From NCBI RefSeq assembly GCF_024448895.1, contig NZ_JAMOIC010000005.1:124001-188000 (forward strand): a stretch of DNA of 64,000 nucleotides, written 5' to 3'. This DNA comes from Stutzerimonas stutzeri. GTDB lineage: Bacteria; Pseudomonadota; Gammaproteobacteria; Pseudomonadales; Pseudomonadaceae. The translations under genes and the position numbers were made by a program. Shown here in pieces: positions 57,872 to 62,585 of this stretch; within the stretch, counting starts at the first letter, position 1, and every line of letters starts with the position of its first letter. The notes under the pieces were generated by a model that saw only the letters and a list, made by a program, of their open reading frames with translations, was not told the DNA's origin and searched no databases.

Positions 57872-59086
57872 ATGACTCGTTTGCCACTCTTCTGCGGCCT
57901 GACCTTTTGCCTGGTGAATCCGGCAATCGCTTGGGAGCAGGTAATGATCGATCCAGAAACTCCCGCCAAAAACTGGCAAGTGACCAGTGAAGAGCTCGGC
58001 ATCAAGGCCGAGAAGCCATTCAAGGTCAGCATGCGCACGCTTCACGGTGGTCGTCAGGAAGGCGTCAGCCTGATCGAGATCGACAACGGTGCGATGCGGA
58101 TGACGGTGATTCCGACCCGCGGGATGAATGTCCTCGAAGCAGTAGCCGGCGATGTGCGCCTGGGCTGGGATTCCCCGGTGGACGAAGTGGTCAACCCGGC
58201 CTTTATAGAGCTCAATGGCCGCGAAGGGCTGGGCTGGCTGGAAGGGTTCAACGAGCTGGTAACCCGCTGCGGGTACGAGTGGGTCGGCCATCCTGGAAAA
58301 GACAATGGCGAGCTGCTCACTCTGCATGGCCGCGCCGCCAACATCCCGGCTTCGCGCGTGGTGCTGGAGATCGACGAGAAGCCGCCCTACGCCATCCGCC
58401 TGCGTGGCGAGTTGAAGGAAAAAGCATTCAAGAAGGTCGATTTCGCCATCCTGACCGAGTTGAGTACCGAGCCCGGCCGTCACGGTTTTTCGCTCCATGA
58501 CACCCTGACCAATCAGGGTGACTACGCTCATGAGTACCAGGCGCTGTACCACACCAACTTCGGCACGCCTTTACTGGAGGAGGGGGCTCGCTTCGTGGCG
58601 CCGGTCAAGCAGGTGTCGCCGTTCAACGCCAAGGCCGGGAAGGAGCTGGCTGATTGGCAGGCCTACCGCGGCCCGACCGCAGACTATGACGAGACCGTCT
58701 ACAATGTCGTGCCTTTCGCTGACGAGGAAGGGGAGACGCTGACCATGTTGCACAACCGGAATGCCGAACGCGGCGTGACCGTTGGATTCAATACACGTGA
58801 GCTGCCGGTTTTCTCGCTTTGGAAAAACACCGATACCGAAAAGCAGGGCTACGTGACCGGCCTTGAGCCCGGCACCAGTTATTCCTACAACCGTGCATAC
58901 CAGCGACCGCTGGGGTTGGTGCCAACCATCGAGCCGGGCGAGCAGAAGCATTTCCGTGTCAGCTACGAGTTGCTGTTGGACAAGGCAGCCGTGGCGGATG
59001 CGCGCTCCCGAATCGAAGCGATCCAGGGCGACCGCAAGACCGAGGTCAGGCAAGAGCCTCTGGTTGATCTGGATAAGAAGGGCTAA
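57872..59086 (+). CDS. DUF4432 aldose-1-epimerase-like protein, predicted exported
   Basis: 404 residues with a likely signal peptide (MTRLPLFCGLTFCLVNPAIA). The galactose-mutarotase-like fold of DUF4432 is recognised by VSLIEIDNGAMRMTVIPTRGMNVLEAVAGDVRLGWDSPVDEVVNP, later TLHGRAANIPASRV and YHTNFGTPLLEEGARFVAPV. Cytoplasmic relatives act on sugars or sugar acids; here export suggests a periplasmic carbohydrate enzyme. AAAAGGAA precedes the ATG. A possible RsmX-like sRNA gene begins about 150 bp downstream. Confidence 0.85.
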   Translation: MTRLPLFCGLTFCLVNPAIAWEQVMIDPETPAKNWQVTSEELGIKAEKPFKVSMRTLHGGRQEGVSLIEIDNGAMRMTVIPTRGMNVLEAVAGDVRLGWDSPVDEVVNPAFIELNGREGLGWLEGFNELVTRCGYEWVGHPGKDNGELLTLHGRAANIPASRVVLEIDEKPPYAIRLRGELKEKAFKKVDFAILTELSTEPGRHGFSLHDTLTNQGDYAHEYQALYHTNFGTPLLEEGARFVAPVKQVSPFNAKAGKELADWQAYRGPTADYDETVYNVVPFADEEGETLTMLHNRNAERGVTVGFNTRELPVFSLWKNTDTEKQGYVTGLEPGTSYSYNRAYQRPLGLVPTIEPGEQKHFRVSYELLLDKAAVADARSRIEAIQGDRKTEVRQEPLVDLDKKG

Positions 59087-59236
59087 TGAATGTTCAGCGC
59101 TGGACGCTGTGGGAAGGCGCGGTCGCGCTCACGCACCTCCCATCCCGGAGCGTCCATGTGCAGCCATAGCGAAAGGCTTACAACAGGTCGCGTCGATCGG
59201 CGATTTTACTCCTCAACCGAATTGCTTAATCTGCAC
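59087..59236. other. Non-coding region upstream of RsmX-like RNA copy 1
   Basis: No gene is seen. It holds the CTTACA-containing upstream element and a CTTAAT -10-like box of the sRNA described next. Confidence 0.5.
59165..59230 (+). promoter_or_regulatory. Candidate GacA-dependent promoter of sRNA copy 1
   Basis: CATAGCGAAAGGCTTACA (59165-59182) has a perfect right half of the GacA element TGTAAG-N6-CTTACA but a poor left half. A CTTAAT box follows at 59225-59230. The spacing puts the element about 64 bases before the likely start, where GacA elements normally sit. Confidence 0.5.
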
Positions 59237-59347
59237 CCACTCTGAAGCGCAGGACGCGCTCAGGATCAGGAAGATCGACCATCGCCAGGACGGCACTCGA
59301 AGGGACTTCGGATAAGGTCAGAAAGAACCCGCTTCGGCGGGTTTTTG
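59237..59347 (+). ncRNA. RsmX-like regulatory RNA, copy 1
   Basis: About 110 bases with six GGA triplets (from 59252, 59263, 59269, 59288, 59303, 59310). Most are in hairpin loops: GCGC-AGGA-CGCGC, GATC-AGGAA-GATC, GCC-AGGAC-GGC and CGAAG-GGA-CTTCG. It ends in a CCCGC-TTCG-GCGGG terminator with five T. This is the architecture of RsmX/Y/Z RNAs, which bind and sequester RsmA/CsrA proteins. A near-duplicate lies 2.28 kb away on the same strand. No reading frame competes here. Confidence 0.78.
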
Positions 59348-59475
59348 CTTTTCCGGAGATTAATATCCGGCCGATAACAGCTGCTTCAGCCAGCGCGGGT
59401 CTTAGTTTTGATCAGCCGCGCACTACACGTCTGTCCTCGACCCGCTGCGCTCAAATCACTATATAGCAGACACAA

Positions 59476-59503
59476 AAAAGCCCCGCCGGAGCGGGGCTTT
59501 TCT
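59476..59503 (-). terminator. Rho-independent terminator of the cold-shock gene
   Basis: AGCCCCGC-CGGA-GCGGGGCT stem, flanked by A-runs and T-runs. On the minus strand it is followed by six T, just past the csp stop. Confidence 0.88.
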
Positions 59504-59515
59504 TAATCAGGCGTC

Positions 59516-59728
59516 TTAGGAGACTTGAACCTGATCAGCCTGCATTCCCTTCTGGCCTTTAGTAGCCATGAAAGAAACAGCTTGGCCTTCGCTCAGGCTT
59601 TTAAAACCTGCGCTTTCGATCGAACGATAATGAACGAACAGGTCTTCGCTGCCGTCGGTCGGCGTAATGAAGCCGAAACCTTTTTCATCGTTGAACCACT
59701 TAACTGTGCCATTTTGACGAGTAGACAT
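59516..59728 (-). CDS. CspA-family cold-shock protein
   Basis: 70 residues of one cold-shock domain. RNP-1 is [19 protein letters not shown] and the start is [13 protein letters not shown]; both match CspA-type RNA chaperones. A 5' region longer than 200 bases, AT-rich, lies upstream, and long leaders are usual for cold-shock genes. It binds single-stranded RNA and counters secondary structure. Its terminator follows at once. It sits between the two RsmX-like RNAs on the opposite strand. It may equally be a constitutive paralogue such as CspD-like/CapB. Confidence 0.93.
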
Positions 59729-59962
59729 GAGTATCTCCCAGGTGTTTTAAGGCTGCAGCGCTGAACCGTTCGGCGCCGAGACTGAGAAGCGAGAAGCAAA
59801 ACGAACCGAGGAGATGAAACAGAGAAACATCATGCCGGGTGTCGAAGTGTTAATTGCGAAGCAGTGGTCACGAATATACGCAGATAAAAATATAAGTACA
59901 GCTTTTGTTTTATTTAGATTGATATTCGGCTGATTAACTGAAGCGAATTTCCAGTGTAATAG
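59729..59962. other. AT-rich leader and promoter region of the cold-shock gene
   Basis: Much lower GC than its surroundings, with no reading frame recognised. On the minus strand it likely carries the csp promoter and long untranslated leader. No specific -10/-35 pair is claimed. Confidence 0.45.
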
Positions 59963-60286
59963 CTAATTTTCAGTTAATTTTTCTGGCCTCCTTTCAGGAG
60001 AAATAAGTCCGATATTAATCCTTAGATATTTAGGTCTTTGTGCATATATATGCGCCGGCCGCCGTCTGGCTTTCGCATTATCAAAATAATCGCAAAACTG
60101 CTTCACGAGTAATGAGCGTCGTGTCCAAAGCGCCTTTGTTGTAGATGAAGCGGTAGAGAGGTCGCGCTGTAGCCGCGATCGCCGACCCTGCCTGCGATCA
60201 CGCCTTCCGAACTCGTCCCTGCGGTCTGCAAACCTTTCTTTTCGCATTAGACGATCTGCATCATTTCCTGGATCTTTTGAATCCAT
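59963..60286 (-). CDS. Possible 107-residue arginine-rich protein
   Basis: The open frame has an AAGGA five bases before its ATG, an unusually good ribosome site. The predicted protein is very basic (RRDEFGRRDRRQGRRSRLQRDL) and ends RINIGLISPERRPEKLTEN, with no recognised domain. The DNA is AT-rich at its 3' end and GC-rich at its 5' end, so codon use is uneven. It could be a real small gene or a chance frame in the csp upstream region. Confidence 0.3.
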   Translation of the reverse strand: MDSKDPGNDADRLMRKERFADRRDEFGRRDRRQGRRSRLQRDLSTASSTTKALWTRRSLLVKQFCDYFDNAKARRRPAHIYAQRPKYLRINIGLISPERRPEKLTEN

Positions 60287-60372
60287 TCGATTCCTTCAGA
60301 TGGGCAACATAGCTTCATCGGCCGGTACACACCGCCGGCCGGACAAGCGTTCTACCTATCGAGGAAATGATC

Positions 60373-61323
60373 ATGAGCACACTGAATCGCGCACTGACTC
60401 TTGCCGCCCTAACGCTGGCCACCGCCGTCACAGCACAAGCCGCTGGAGCTGTCGACTCCCGCTCTGCTGCAACCCTAGGCAGCGAACGCTCCGAAAGCTA
60501 TGTCACGACGAAGGACGGTGTCAGCCTCTACTACAAGGACTGGGGCCCGCGTGATGGCCAGGTCGTTACCTTCAGCCACGGTTGGCCACTAAATGCCGAT
60601 AGCTGGGAGTCGCAGATGATGTTCCTGGCGTCGAAAGGCTATCGCGTCGTCGCTCATGACCGCCGCGGCCATGGCCGCTCCAGCCAGCCGTGGGAAGGCA
60701 ACGACATGGACCATTACGCCGACGACCTTGCGGCTGTCCTCGAAGCACTGGACCTGAAGGATGCGACCCTTGTCGGCTTCTCGACCGGCGGCGGCGAGGT
60801 GGCGCGCTATATCGGTCGCCATGGCACGGAGCGTGTGAAGAAAGCAGTGCTGGTCGCTTCGGTGCCGCCGCTGATGCTTAAGACCGAGAGCAACCCCGAC
60901 GGCGTGCCGCAGGAGGTGTTCGACGGCCTCCGCCAGGCTTCGCTGGACAACCGTTCGCAGCTGTATCTGGATATCGCATCCGGCCCCTTCTTTGGCTACA
61001 ACCGTCCAGGTGCAACGCCGTCACAGGGGCTGATCCAGTCCTTCTGGGTGCAGGGCATGCAGGCAGGCCACAAGAACACCTACGATTCGATCGCCGCGTT
61101 TTCGGCTACCGATTTCCGCGAAGACCTGAAGAAATTCGATGTGCCCACGCTGGTGATTCATGGCGACGACGATCAGATCGTGCCGATTGATACCTCCGCC
61201 CGTGCCTCGGCGGCCATCGTCAAAGGTGCCGAGCTCATCGTGTATCCAGGCGCGCCCCACGGCCTGGCGGACACCCACAAGAACCGCCTTAACCAGGACC
61301 TGCTGGATTTCCTCAGAAAGTGA
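60373..61323 (+). CDS. Exported alpha/beta hydrolase (non-haem chloroperoxidase/esterase type)
   Basis: 316 residues from the ATG at 60373, seven bases after GAGGA; an ATG at 60367 is also in frame. A signal peptide ([17 protein letters not shown]) precedes the hydrolase fold. It shows the oxyanion-region [23 protein letters not shown], nucleophile GFSTGGGE, Asp in HGDDDQIVP and His in YPGAPHGL. This triad is that of cofactor-free chloroperoxidase/arylesterases, most of which are cytoplasmic. Substrate unknown. It lies between the two RsmX-like RNAs. Confidence 0.88.
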
Positions 61324-61334
61324 TGATGTCAAGG

Positions 61335-61357
61335 CCAGCTCCGCGATGCGGAGCTGG
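61335..61357 (+). terminator. Hairpin after the alpha/beta hydrolase gene
   Basis: Perfect 10-bp stem CCAGCTCCGC-GAT-GCGGAGCTGG, twelve bases after the stop. No T-run follows, so factor-independent termination is uncertain. Confidence 0.5.
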
Positions 61358-61444
61358 TCGCTGCCGCGGGCGCCCGTGATGGGCGGTCGGGGTTGCAATA
61401 CTGCTGAGCGTAGCGGGACAGCGGAACGACAGGTTTGTTTCAGC

Positions 61445-61509
61445 TATAGCGAAAGGCTTACAAGAATCCCAGACTTTGGCTCTTTTGTACCGGCATTCGG
61501 ATGCTTAAT
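61445..61509 (+). promoter_or_regulatory. Candidate GacA-dependent promoter of sRNA copy 2
   Basis: TATAGCGAAAGGCTTACA (61445-61462) shares 16 bases, AGCGAAAGGCTTACAA, with the site of copy 1. The CTTAAT box at 61504-61509 lies 42 bases on. The conservation of just this block and the -10, with divergent sequence between, suggests functional selection. Confidence 0.52.
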
Positions 61510-61515
61510 CTATGC

Positions 61516-61627
61516 CCATCTCTGAAGCGCAGGACGCGCTCAGGATCAAGGAAGATCGACCATCGCCAGGAGGGCACCCGGAAGGATTCGGAATGGTCAG
61601 GAAAAACCCGCTTCGGCGGGTTTTTTG
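61516..61627 (+). ncRNA. RsmX-like regulatory RNA, copy 2
   Basis: About 112 bases with eight GGA triplets (from 61532, 61543, 61550, 61569, 61580, 61584, 61590, 61600). It is near-identical to copy 1 over its first half. The hairpins GCGC-AGGA-CGCGC, GATC-AAGGAA-GATC and GCC-AGGAG-GGC are kept. The fourth is CCGGA-AGGA-TTCGG, which differs from copy 1 on both sides of the stem and still pairs. It ends in CCCGC-TTCG-GCGGG and six T. That pattern of compensatory change supports an RNA function. Confidence 0.8.
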
Positions 61628-61670
61628 TTGCTTGAGAAAAAAGTGCCTGCCTCCAGCACTCCCGCCGTGG

Positions 61671-62585
61671 CTATCGCTCACCTGTGCGGTTGCTGCCCAC
61701 CGCCACGATCTGTTCGATAAGCCACTGCAACGCTGCATCTCGCTCGCGCTGGGCGACACTGACGATGTCCAGCTGAAAGGTGCCGAGATCGAACGGCAAA
61801 TCGAAAAGCTGCAAGGGCAGCAATCCTGCGAAATGCCGGGCGAGGCCCGTCGGAAGCACAGCGGCAAGGTCGCTGCTGGCCACGATATGGGCCGCTTGCA
61901 GGTAGTTCGGTGTCGTGTAGACGACGTCTCGCTTAAGGTCGTGATCTTCCAGCCATTGATCCACCATGCCGCGGGTCTGCCCGCCATGAACCCACAGATG
62001 GCGCAGCCGCAGGAACCCCGGCAGATCTAGTTCACCCTCGATCAATGGATGGTGTTGGCGTAGCGCCACCTGCAGCGTTTCACTGGCCCAGCGGCGGCTG
62101 TGGAAGCGGGTCGGCACATCAAGGAACCGTCCGACCGCCAGATCGATCTCCCCGTTATCCAACGCTTCGGCGGGCAGGGAGGGCGTCAGGTGCTGGATCG
62201 CCAGCTGGATGCCCGGCGCCACCTTCGCCAGATGCGCCATCAGCGCGGGCATGCAGATCAGCTCTACATAGTCGGTCACGGCGATGACGAAGCGCTGCCG
62301 GCTGGTCGCTGGATCGAAGAAATCACCGGCATTGAGCGTGTGTTCGATCTGCAGCAAGGCATCGCGAATCGGCGCTTCGAGGCTCAGCGCGCGGGGCGTC
62401 GGTTGCATGGCCCGGCCGACCCGCACCAGCAGTGGATCATCGAGCAATTCACGCAACCGATTGAGCGCATTACTGACCGCCGGTTGGCTGAGTGACAGGC
62501 GCTCGGCGGCGCGTGAAACGTTGCGCTCTCGCAGCAAGGCGTCTAGCACGCGGAGCAGGTTAAGATCGAAGCTGTAGATATTCAT
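61671..62585 (-). CDS. LysR-family transcriptional regulator
   Basis: About 304 residues from the ATG at 62585, chosen because an operator-like repeat lies just upstream. The frame is open 12 codons further. The winged helix-turn-helix reads NLLRVLDALLRERNVSRAAERLSLSQPAVSNALNRLRELLDDPLLVR, and the rest is an effector domain with VAVTDYVE-like FVIAVTDYVELICMPALMAHL. The inducer is unknown. It is divergent from the 3-hydroxyacyl-CoA dehydrogenase operon, which it probably controls. Confidence 0.92.
   Translation of the reverse strand: MNIYSFDLNLLRVLDALLRERNVSRAAERLSLSQPAVSNALNRLRELLDDPLLVRVGRAMQPTPRALSLEAPIRDALLQIEHTLNAGDFFDPATSRQRFVIAVTDYVELICMPALMAHLAKVAPGIQLAIQHLTPSLPAEALDNGEIDLAVGRFLDVPTRFHSRRWASETLQVALRQHHPLIEGELDLPGFLRLRHLWVHGGQTRGMVDQWLEDHDLKRDVVYTTPNYLQAAHIVASSDLAAVLPTGLARHFAGLLPLQLFDLPFDLGTFQLDIVSVAQRERDAALQWLIEQIVAVGSNRTGER

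Follow-up and report, generated by a model that had tools for sequence, protein, structure and literature searches.

A pair of rsmX small RNA genes in Stutzerimonas stutzeri, very probably retained from an old tandem duplication

The rsmX locus

The stretch analysed here, 64,000 nucleotides of contig NZ_JAMOIC010000005.1 of Stutzerimonas stutzeri (the window), carries two small RNA genes near its end, both on the forward strand and each closed by its own terminator. They match the rsmX family of Rfam (RF02144, gathering score 56 bits) over the full length of the model: rsmX1 at 59237-59347 with 74.2 bits and rsmX2 at 61517-61626 with 96.4 bits. An earlier note on this DNA had taken the two units for RsmX-like RNAs and had proposed a covariance search with the RsmX, RsmY and RsmZ models. 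This search confirmed the identity of both units and placed one RsmY (77.5 bits) and one RsmZ (96.4 bits), both over the cut-off, elsewhere in the genome; the Rfam model gave no rsmX match in the genome beyond these two at an E-value of 0.001. The two RNAs are 86.0% identical. It is very probable that they represent the two rsmX genes of the Gac/Rsm system of Stutzerimonas, retained after an old tandem duplication. A tandem rsmX pair has already been tabulated for P. stutzeri and other species; what is added here is the age of the duplication and, as a new lead, a possible further control site before rsmX2 only.

The units contain six (rsmX1) and eight (rsmX2) GGA triplets, and our recount agrees with the numbers given before. 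Among 1725 sampled 111-base stretches of the window, a sample which includes both rsmX genes, the mean was 1.4 triplets, with six or more in 8 stretches and eight or more in 2.

Promoters and the GacA-type upstream site

Both genes are preceded by the block AGCGAAAGGCTTACAA, which occurs exactly twice in the window and is absent from the opposite strand, and by a CTTAAT box at 59225-59230 and 61504-61509; the sharing of these two elements was thus described correctly from the start. The box is a putative -10 element. At rsmX1 it lies 42 bases past the GacA-type upstream activating sequence (UAS), as in most upstream copies of the genus, and at rsmX2 41 bases past it, a distance shared by most of the downstream copies that have a TTAATC box. 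The UAS itself is found at 59165-59182 (CATAGCGAAAGGCTTACA, rsmX1) and at 61445-61462 (TATAGCGAAAGGCTTACA, rsmX2), on the forward strand like the boxes. The two sites differ by one base and are conserved in the genus, and that of rsmX2 agrees in 17 of 18 bases with the UAS of rsmX in Pseudomonas brassicacearum, printed as TATAGCGAAACGCTTACA (PMC7911923). Their centre is about 64 bases ahead of the first base of the rsmX model; judged by sequence, this fits the GacA site roughly 60 bases upstream that the earlier note gave as known for Rsm RNAs. A generic scan listed no sigma-70-type promoter within 59000-61800.

When the genome was scanned for the UAS with up to three mismatches, five places were found, those with no or one mismatch being restricted to rsmX1 and rsmX2, and the reversed pattern used as control gave none. 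The genome encodes one GacA/UvrY-type protein over the cut-off. The rsmX form TATAGCGAAAGGCTTACA is distinct from the palindrome TGTAAG-N4-8-CTTACA, of which there are four perfect cases in the genome: two before rsmY, one before rsmZ and one elsewhere. This fourth palindrome (TGTAAG-N6-CTTACA, C4:318972, about 1501-1518 of the fetched stretch L113) is not located beside a known Rsm RNA, and L113 around it gave no Rfam match up to an E-value of 0.1.

Conservation of the UAS was counted in 45 of the 54 units of the genus, after near-copies and the unit G026_B, which has no recognisable UAS, had been dropped; the four near-copies of genome G001 were likewise dropped from the counts of the upstream block and of the PsrA form given below. 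Positions 3, 5, 6, 9, 13 and 15-18 are invariant, including T3, G5 and C6. Position 4 is A in 32 units and G in 13, and position 1 is T in 41. Poorer sites are present in two single-copy genomes, with 6 (G029) and 4 (G031) mismatches. The left half of the GacA site had been considered degenerate in the earlier note. This does not hold: TATAGC is the regular left half of an rsmX site, as seen in P. brassicacearum, whose UAS is one base off, and in the conservation of this half throughout the genus. The same two observations rule out a decayed GacA palindrome.

RNA structure

The fold of the rsmX RNAs runs from hairpin 1 and hairpin 2 to an outer stem enclosing hairpins 3 and 4, followed by the terminator. 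The common hairpin order and the intrinsic terminators noticed before are supported by the Rfam model, by folding and by the alignment. Both folds are better than those of shuffled sequences, with z-scores of -2.91 (rsmX1) and -3.53 (rsmX2) and 1 of 200 shuffles equal in each case. In the predicted structures of the two window copies a GGA stands in all four hairpin loops; one of the two additional triplets of rsmX2 is part of the fourth stem, the other of the linker preceding the terminator. Over the 53 sequences compared, three of these loop positions and one linker position carry GGA without exception, and the fourth loop does so in 52. At the 3' end of both RNAs there is a CCCGC-TTCG-GCGGG stem with a T run, that is, a terminator of the Rho-independent type, which forms helix 6 of the alignment with 98.7% of cells paired. 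A generic terminator scan listed neither of the two.

In the structure alignment of 47 distinct sequences (G026_B dropped), 95.3% of the cells pair and 7 pairs are changed on both sides, compared with a mean of 2.1 in shuffled alignments (0 of 500 as high). Sliding the alignment by one to three columns lowers the pairing to 31-45%, a control that leans towards the tested structure because this was drawn from the two window copies. The RNAalifold consensus retains hairpins 1 to 3, the outer stem and the terminator. Two results weigh against the structure: further standard pair types are no more frequent than in shuffles (171 of 500), and the fourth hairpin takes another form in the RNAalifold consensus.

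This fourth hairpin had been described as differing on both strands of its stem and still pairing, which is correct, but comparing the two copies reveals no pair in which both partners are exchanged. Relative to rsmX1, three columns of the 5' strand differ in rsmX2 (U-G to C-G, A-U to G-U, and the innermost G to A), and its 3' strand is one base shorter. Because of the innermost exchange and the missing base, the innermost G-C pair is absent from rsmX2 and five pairs are left. Across the genus, three of the six pairs of this hairpin are changed on both sides.

Age of the duplication

The presence of both copies in related strains was checked in 36 relatives of the same genus. At least two copies at the locus were found in 19 of them (three in G026) and one copy in 13, while one genome has a weak match only (33.8 bits) and three have none, one of the latter being 71% complete. 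Additional weak matches exist elsewhere in some genomes, and one of the searches behind these counts applied stricter filters.

In the 19 pairs, RNAs from the same genome share 85.5% identity, and an upstream copy compared with a downstream copy from another genome reaches 86.0%. The orthologues are more alike, with 91.9% among upstream and 90.4% among downstream copies. Without seven close relatives (12 pairs) the corresponding values are 85.7%, 85.9%, 90.8% and 90.5%. The upstream and downstream copies hence behave as two orthologous lines, and since orthologues in different genomes resemble each other more than the copies within a genome do, the duplication is old and was not followed by homogenisation. 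Of the local duplication suggested in the earlier note the duplication itself stands, but the two-line pattern makes it old and genus-wide and excludes a recent local event.

The midpoint split of a gyrB tree leaves genomes with an rsmX pair on either side, and single-copy genomes are dispersed over the tree. The two-copy label changes seven times, at least four of these changes being forced by well-supported branches. With the midpoint taken as root, repeated losses would be the simplest explanation for the dispersed single-copy genomes. In the tree of the rsmX units, a branch with support 94/88, below the starred level, sets 33 upstream and single copies apart from the downstream ones. For part-trees the rows G026_B and G020_S were dropped; that of the promoters unites the downstream group at 86.7, and that of the RNA does not recover it, with a constrained group not being rejected (AU p 0.493). 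Support by trees for the two lines is therefore to be called moderate. At nine diagnostic columns many of the single copies resemble upstream copies in their middle part and downstream copies at the 3' end. As three upstream copies share the same 3' end, an ancestral state of the single copies is indistinguishable from a hybrid one.

The tabulated P. stutzeri pair (strain printed as 'A150'; PMC7911923) is most likely this locus, because its starts are 239 bases apart, compared with 240 in the relative G010.

Possible roles of the two copies

By analogy with studied relatives, GacA would bind the UAS about 64 bases before each rsmX RNA and switch the RNA on. The RNAs of about 110 bases, with GGA in four hairpin loops and in linkers, would then draw RsmA/CsrA-type proteins off their mRNA targets, jointly with RsmY and RsmZ. 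How the two copies share this task can be viewed in different ways. According to the earlier note they are plain dose units, where more genes give more sponge under the same control, and we put this at slightly under an even chance. Neither copy has lost its UAS, its -10 box or its loop GGAs, and the rsmX copies of P. brassicacearum are both described as exclusively GacA-dependent (PMC7911923). However, the spacer between UAS and box is 57.0% identical in the upstream and 63.1% in the downstream line, but 42.4% within genomes (19 pairs; 54.0%, 60.9% and 43.7% without the close relatives). The downstream copy also has more GGA triplets in 15 of the 19 pairs, the number being equal in the other 4. 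Promoters and GGA counts have thus stayed different throughout the genus, which speaks against plain redundancy. Furthermore, rsmX copy number is unrelated to the number of CsrA-type genes in the 36 genomes (Spearman 0.01, p 0.94, uncorrected for kinship), and we rejected the idea that the former is set by the latter.

Separate control of the copies, in which another regulator, in the simplest case PsrA, would have a site beside the GacA site of the downstream copy only, appears rather doubtful at present, although several observations point in this direction. Ahead of the UAS, many downstream copies have kept a block (in the window GACAGCG-AACG and GTTTGTTTC), and the upstream copies are without it. 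It includes a putative PsrA-like dyad, GGAAC-N5-GTTTG at 61423-61437 on the forward strand, 7 bases before the UAS and with one mismatch to [CG]AAAC-N5-GTTT[CG]. The operator of PsrA is given as C/GAAAC-N2-4-GTTTG/C (PMC3510223, PMC13104628), and a site with five bases between the halves, GAAACGGATCGTTTC, is bound by PsrA at phlA (PMC3510223). We searched the 60 bases before each UAS for [CG]AAAC-N2-5-GTTT[CG] with up to two mismatches. Among downstream copies 11 of 16 had a match, among upstream copies 2 of 16 and among single copies 2 of 13, compared with shuffled means of 2.1, 1.7 and 1.5; the observed counts were reached by 0, 157 and 141 of 300 shuffles, respectively. Nine of the 11 downstream matches start 20-22 bases before the UAS. 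The 28 bases preceding the UAS were better conserved in the 16 downstream copies (identity 0.452) than in the 16 upstream copies of the same genomes (0.335); a column bootstrap gave 0.044-0.185 for the difference, and the base-shuffled null was 0.255.

The genome also has a gene for a PsrA-like protein, which is divergent from lexA; the interval between the two genes contains one exact site and two sites with one mismatch. Another exact site is located 417 bases before a gene which we read as rpoS from its sequence and its position before rsmZ; psrA and rpoS are known targets of PsrA (PMC3510223, PMC13104628). Moreover, PsrA binding to the rsmZ promoter of P. fluorescens CHA0 is cited in both papers from Humair 2010, a site CAAAGN4CTTTT, tested by mutation, overlapping the UAS there. 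That case resembles ours in that an Rsm RNA gene has a candidate PsrA site at its GacA site. It differs in that here the gene is rsmX2 and that the GAAAC-N5-GTTTG-like dyad, known by sequence only, lies 7 bases before the UAS.

Several points argue against a PsrA site. The motif was picked after the block had been seen, 5 of the 16 downstream copies are without the form at this cut-off, 2 of the 11 matches are located elsewhere, and common ancestry inflates the count. One-mismatch matches number 13 in the window and 10 in the reversed window. The PsrA-like protein scores 238.9 bits, under the NCBIfam cut-off of 300, and rsmX of P. fluorescens 2P24 is reported to be unaffected by psrA (PMC3510223). 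Only as a tentative and rather unlikely model would we therefore propose that, after the old duplication, rsmX1 came to read GacA alone and rsmX2 GacA together with a second regulator, probably the fatty-acid sensor PsrA, via the adjoining dyad.

Neighbouring genes

Between the two copies lie a cold-shock domain gene (csp; 59516-59728, reverse strand; Pfam CSD, 100 bits), a neighbour that is not part of the RNA genes, and an alpha/beta hydrolase gene (60367-61323, forward strand; Pfam Abhydrolase_1, 130.5 bits), whose product is putatively exported according to its N-terminus. That the copies bracket these two genes, as was noted before, is true for the window, but both are neighbours which vary between species. 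Of 20 multi-copy loci, own genome included, 16 have csp between the copies; the hydrolase, a variable cargo, is present there at nearly its full length in 7 of the 20 and fragmentary in one. The fullest order reads HPF, histidine phosphatase, DUF4432, rsmX1, csp (reverse), hydrolase, rsmX2, LysR (reverse) and 3-hydroxyacyl-CoA dehydrogenase. The presence of DUF4432, csp and the hydrolase varies among the loci of the relatives; at some loci LysR and the dehydrogenase did not appear in the stretch that was fetched. A megablast of the region against plasmids returned 11 records with partial matches (17-29% of the query), located in the hydrolase part. In the csp region (59472-59793, reverse strand) a match to the cspA thermoregulator was observed below its cut-off (39.5 bits, gathering score 78), which partly covers the coding sequence itself.

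It is very improbable that the rsmX units are the 3' parts of preceding mRNAs: a gene on the same strand does precede each unit, with stop codons ending at 59086 and 61323, but every unit comes with a conserved UAS and box of its own, and the unit persists among relatives while the upstream neighbour changes between the hydrolase, a reversed csp and neither.

Rsm-binding proteins and further candidate RNAs

One canonical CsrA and three divergent proteins of the CsrA family are encoded in the genome. The divergent genes lie at C6:57544, C3:305804 and C9:51671 (L099-L101), the highest count among the 36 genomes, and the one protein that was searched matches the structures of RsmF and RsmN with E-values of 1.7e-12 and 2.1e-12. 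Two of these genes are 7-10 kb from weak matches of the RsmY model at C9:41856 and C6:50191 (26.6 and 26.5 bits). From this proximity, islands may carry a regulator together with its own sponge.

A possible Rsm-like RNA was observed at 2506-2652 of the window on the forward strand, with a match of the RsmY model at 2527-2648 (32.9 bits, gathering score 57). The stretch has a very stable fold (z -5.75, 0 of 200 shuffles equal), several GGA triplets in predicted loops and a strong terminator, and its 5' part is shared by a stretch on contig C6 (L078 885-1140, minus strand). Neither stretch had matches in plasmids, and their shared motif had none in viral contigs. Another candidate Rsm RNA at C9:172508-172625 (L075 1509-1626, minus strand) reaches 41.3 bits with the RsmY model (gathering score 57). 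It has six GGA triplets by eye, a terminator and, centred about 64 bases before its start, TGTAAGCATTCGCCTACG, which is near to the GacA palindrome; its fold is no better than that of shuffles (z -0.70). In the wider family, the relatives G141, G152 and G134 (genus g27) gave 10, 10 and 8 matches of the rsmX model at an E-value of 0.001, which are not all necessarily over the cut-off.

Comparison with known systems

Tandem genes rsmX-1 and rsmX-2 are described in P. brassicacearum NFM421, with pairs also tabulated for P. fluorescens F113 and P. stutzeri (PMC7911923). In P. brassicacearum, a tandem rsmX-2 depends on GacA and its overexpression rescues a gacA mutant (PMC7911923). The genes of NFM421 and those of the window belong to the same family, are tandem copies of about 110 bases and have a UAS that differs by one base. 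What is different in the window is that the copies are 2.28 kb apart with csp and the hydrolase between them, and that the downstream copy has eight GGA triplets and the PsrA-like dyad. Multiple rsmX copies, two of them in tandem, are also listed for P. syringae, five there (rsmX3 and rsmX4 adjoining; PMC7911923) compared with two here, and the 5' ends of the five P. syringae genes agree with reported starts (PMC3247240).

For strain A1501, work on biofilm control tested RsmY and RsmZ, states a single RsmA and infers that no other Rsm RNA takes part in this control (PMC8249394); rsmXYZ is mentioned in general terms in another paper (PMC12459779). A literature search on both names found no publication joining 'Stutzerimonas' and 'rsmX'; 'PsrA' and 'rsmX' occur together in 15. 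With the pair tabulated elsewhere, the role of rsmX in P. stutzeri is directly testable.

Within the genus, the rsmX pair is old, its copies have not been made alike, and many species have only one copy. This makes the locus a naturally given case for asking why more than one copy of an RNA that sponges a protein is maintained in bacteria. If the tentative model of a second regulator at rsmX2 is true, the two copies would be separate inputs to one RsmA sponge.

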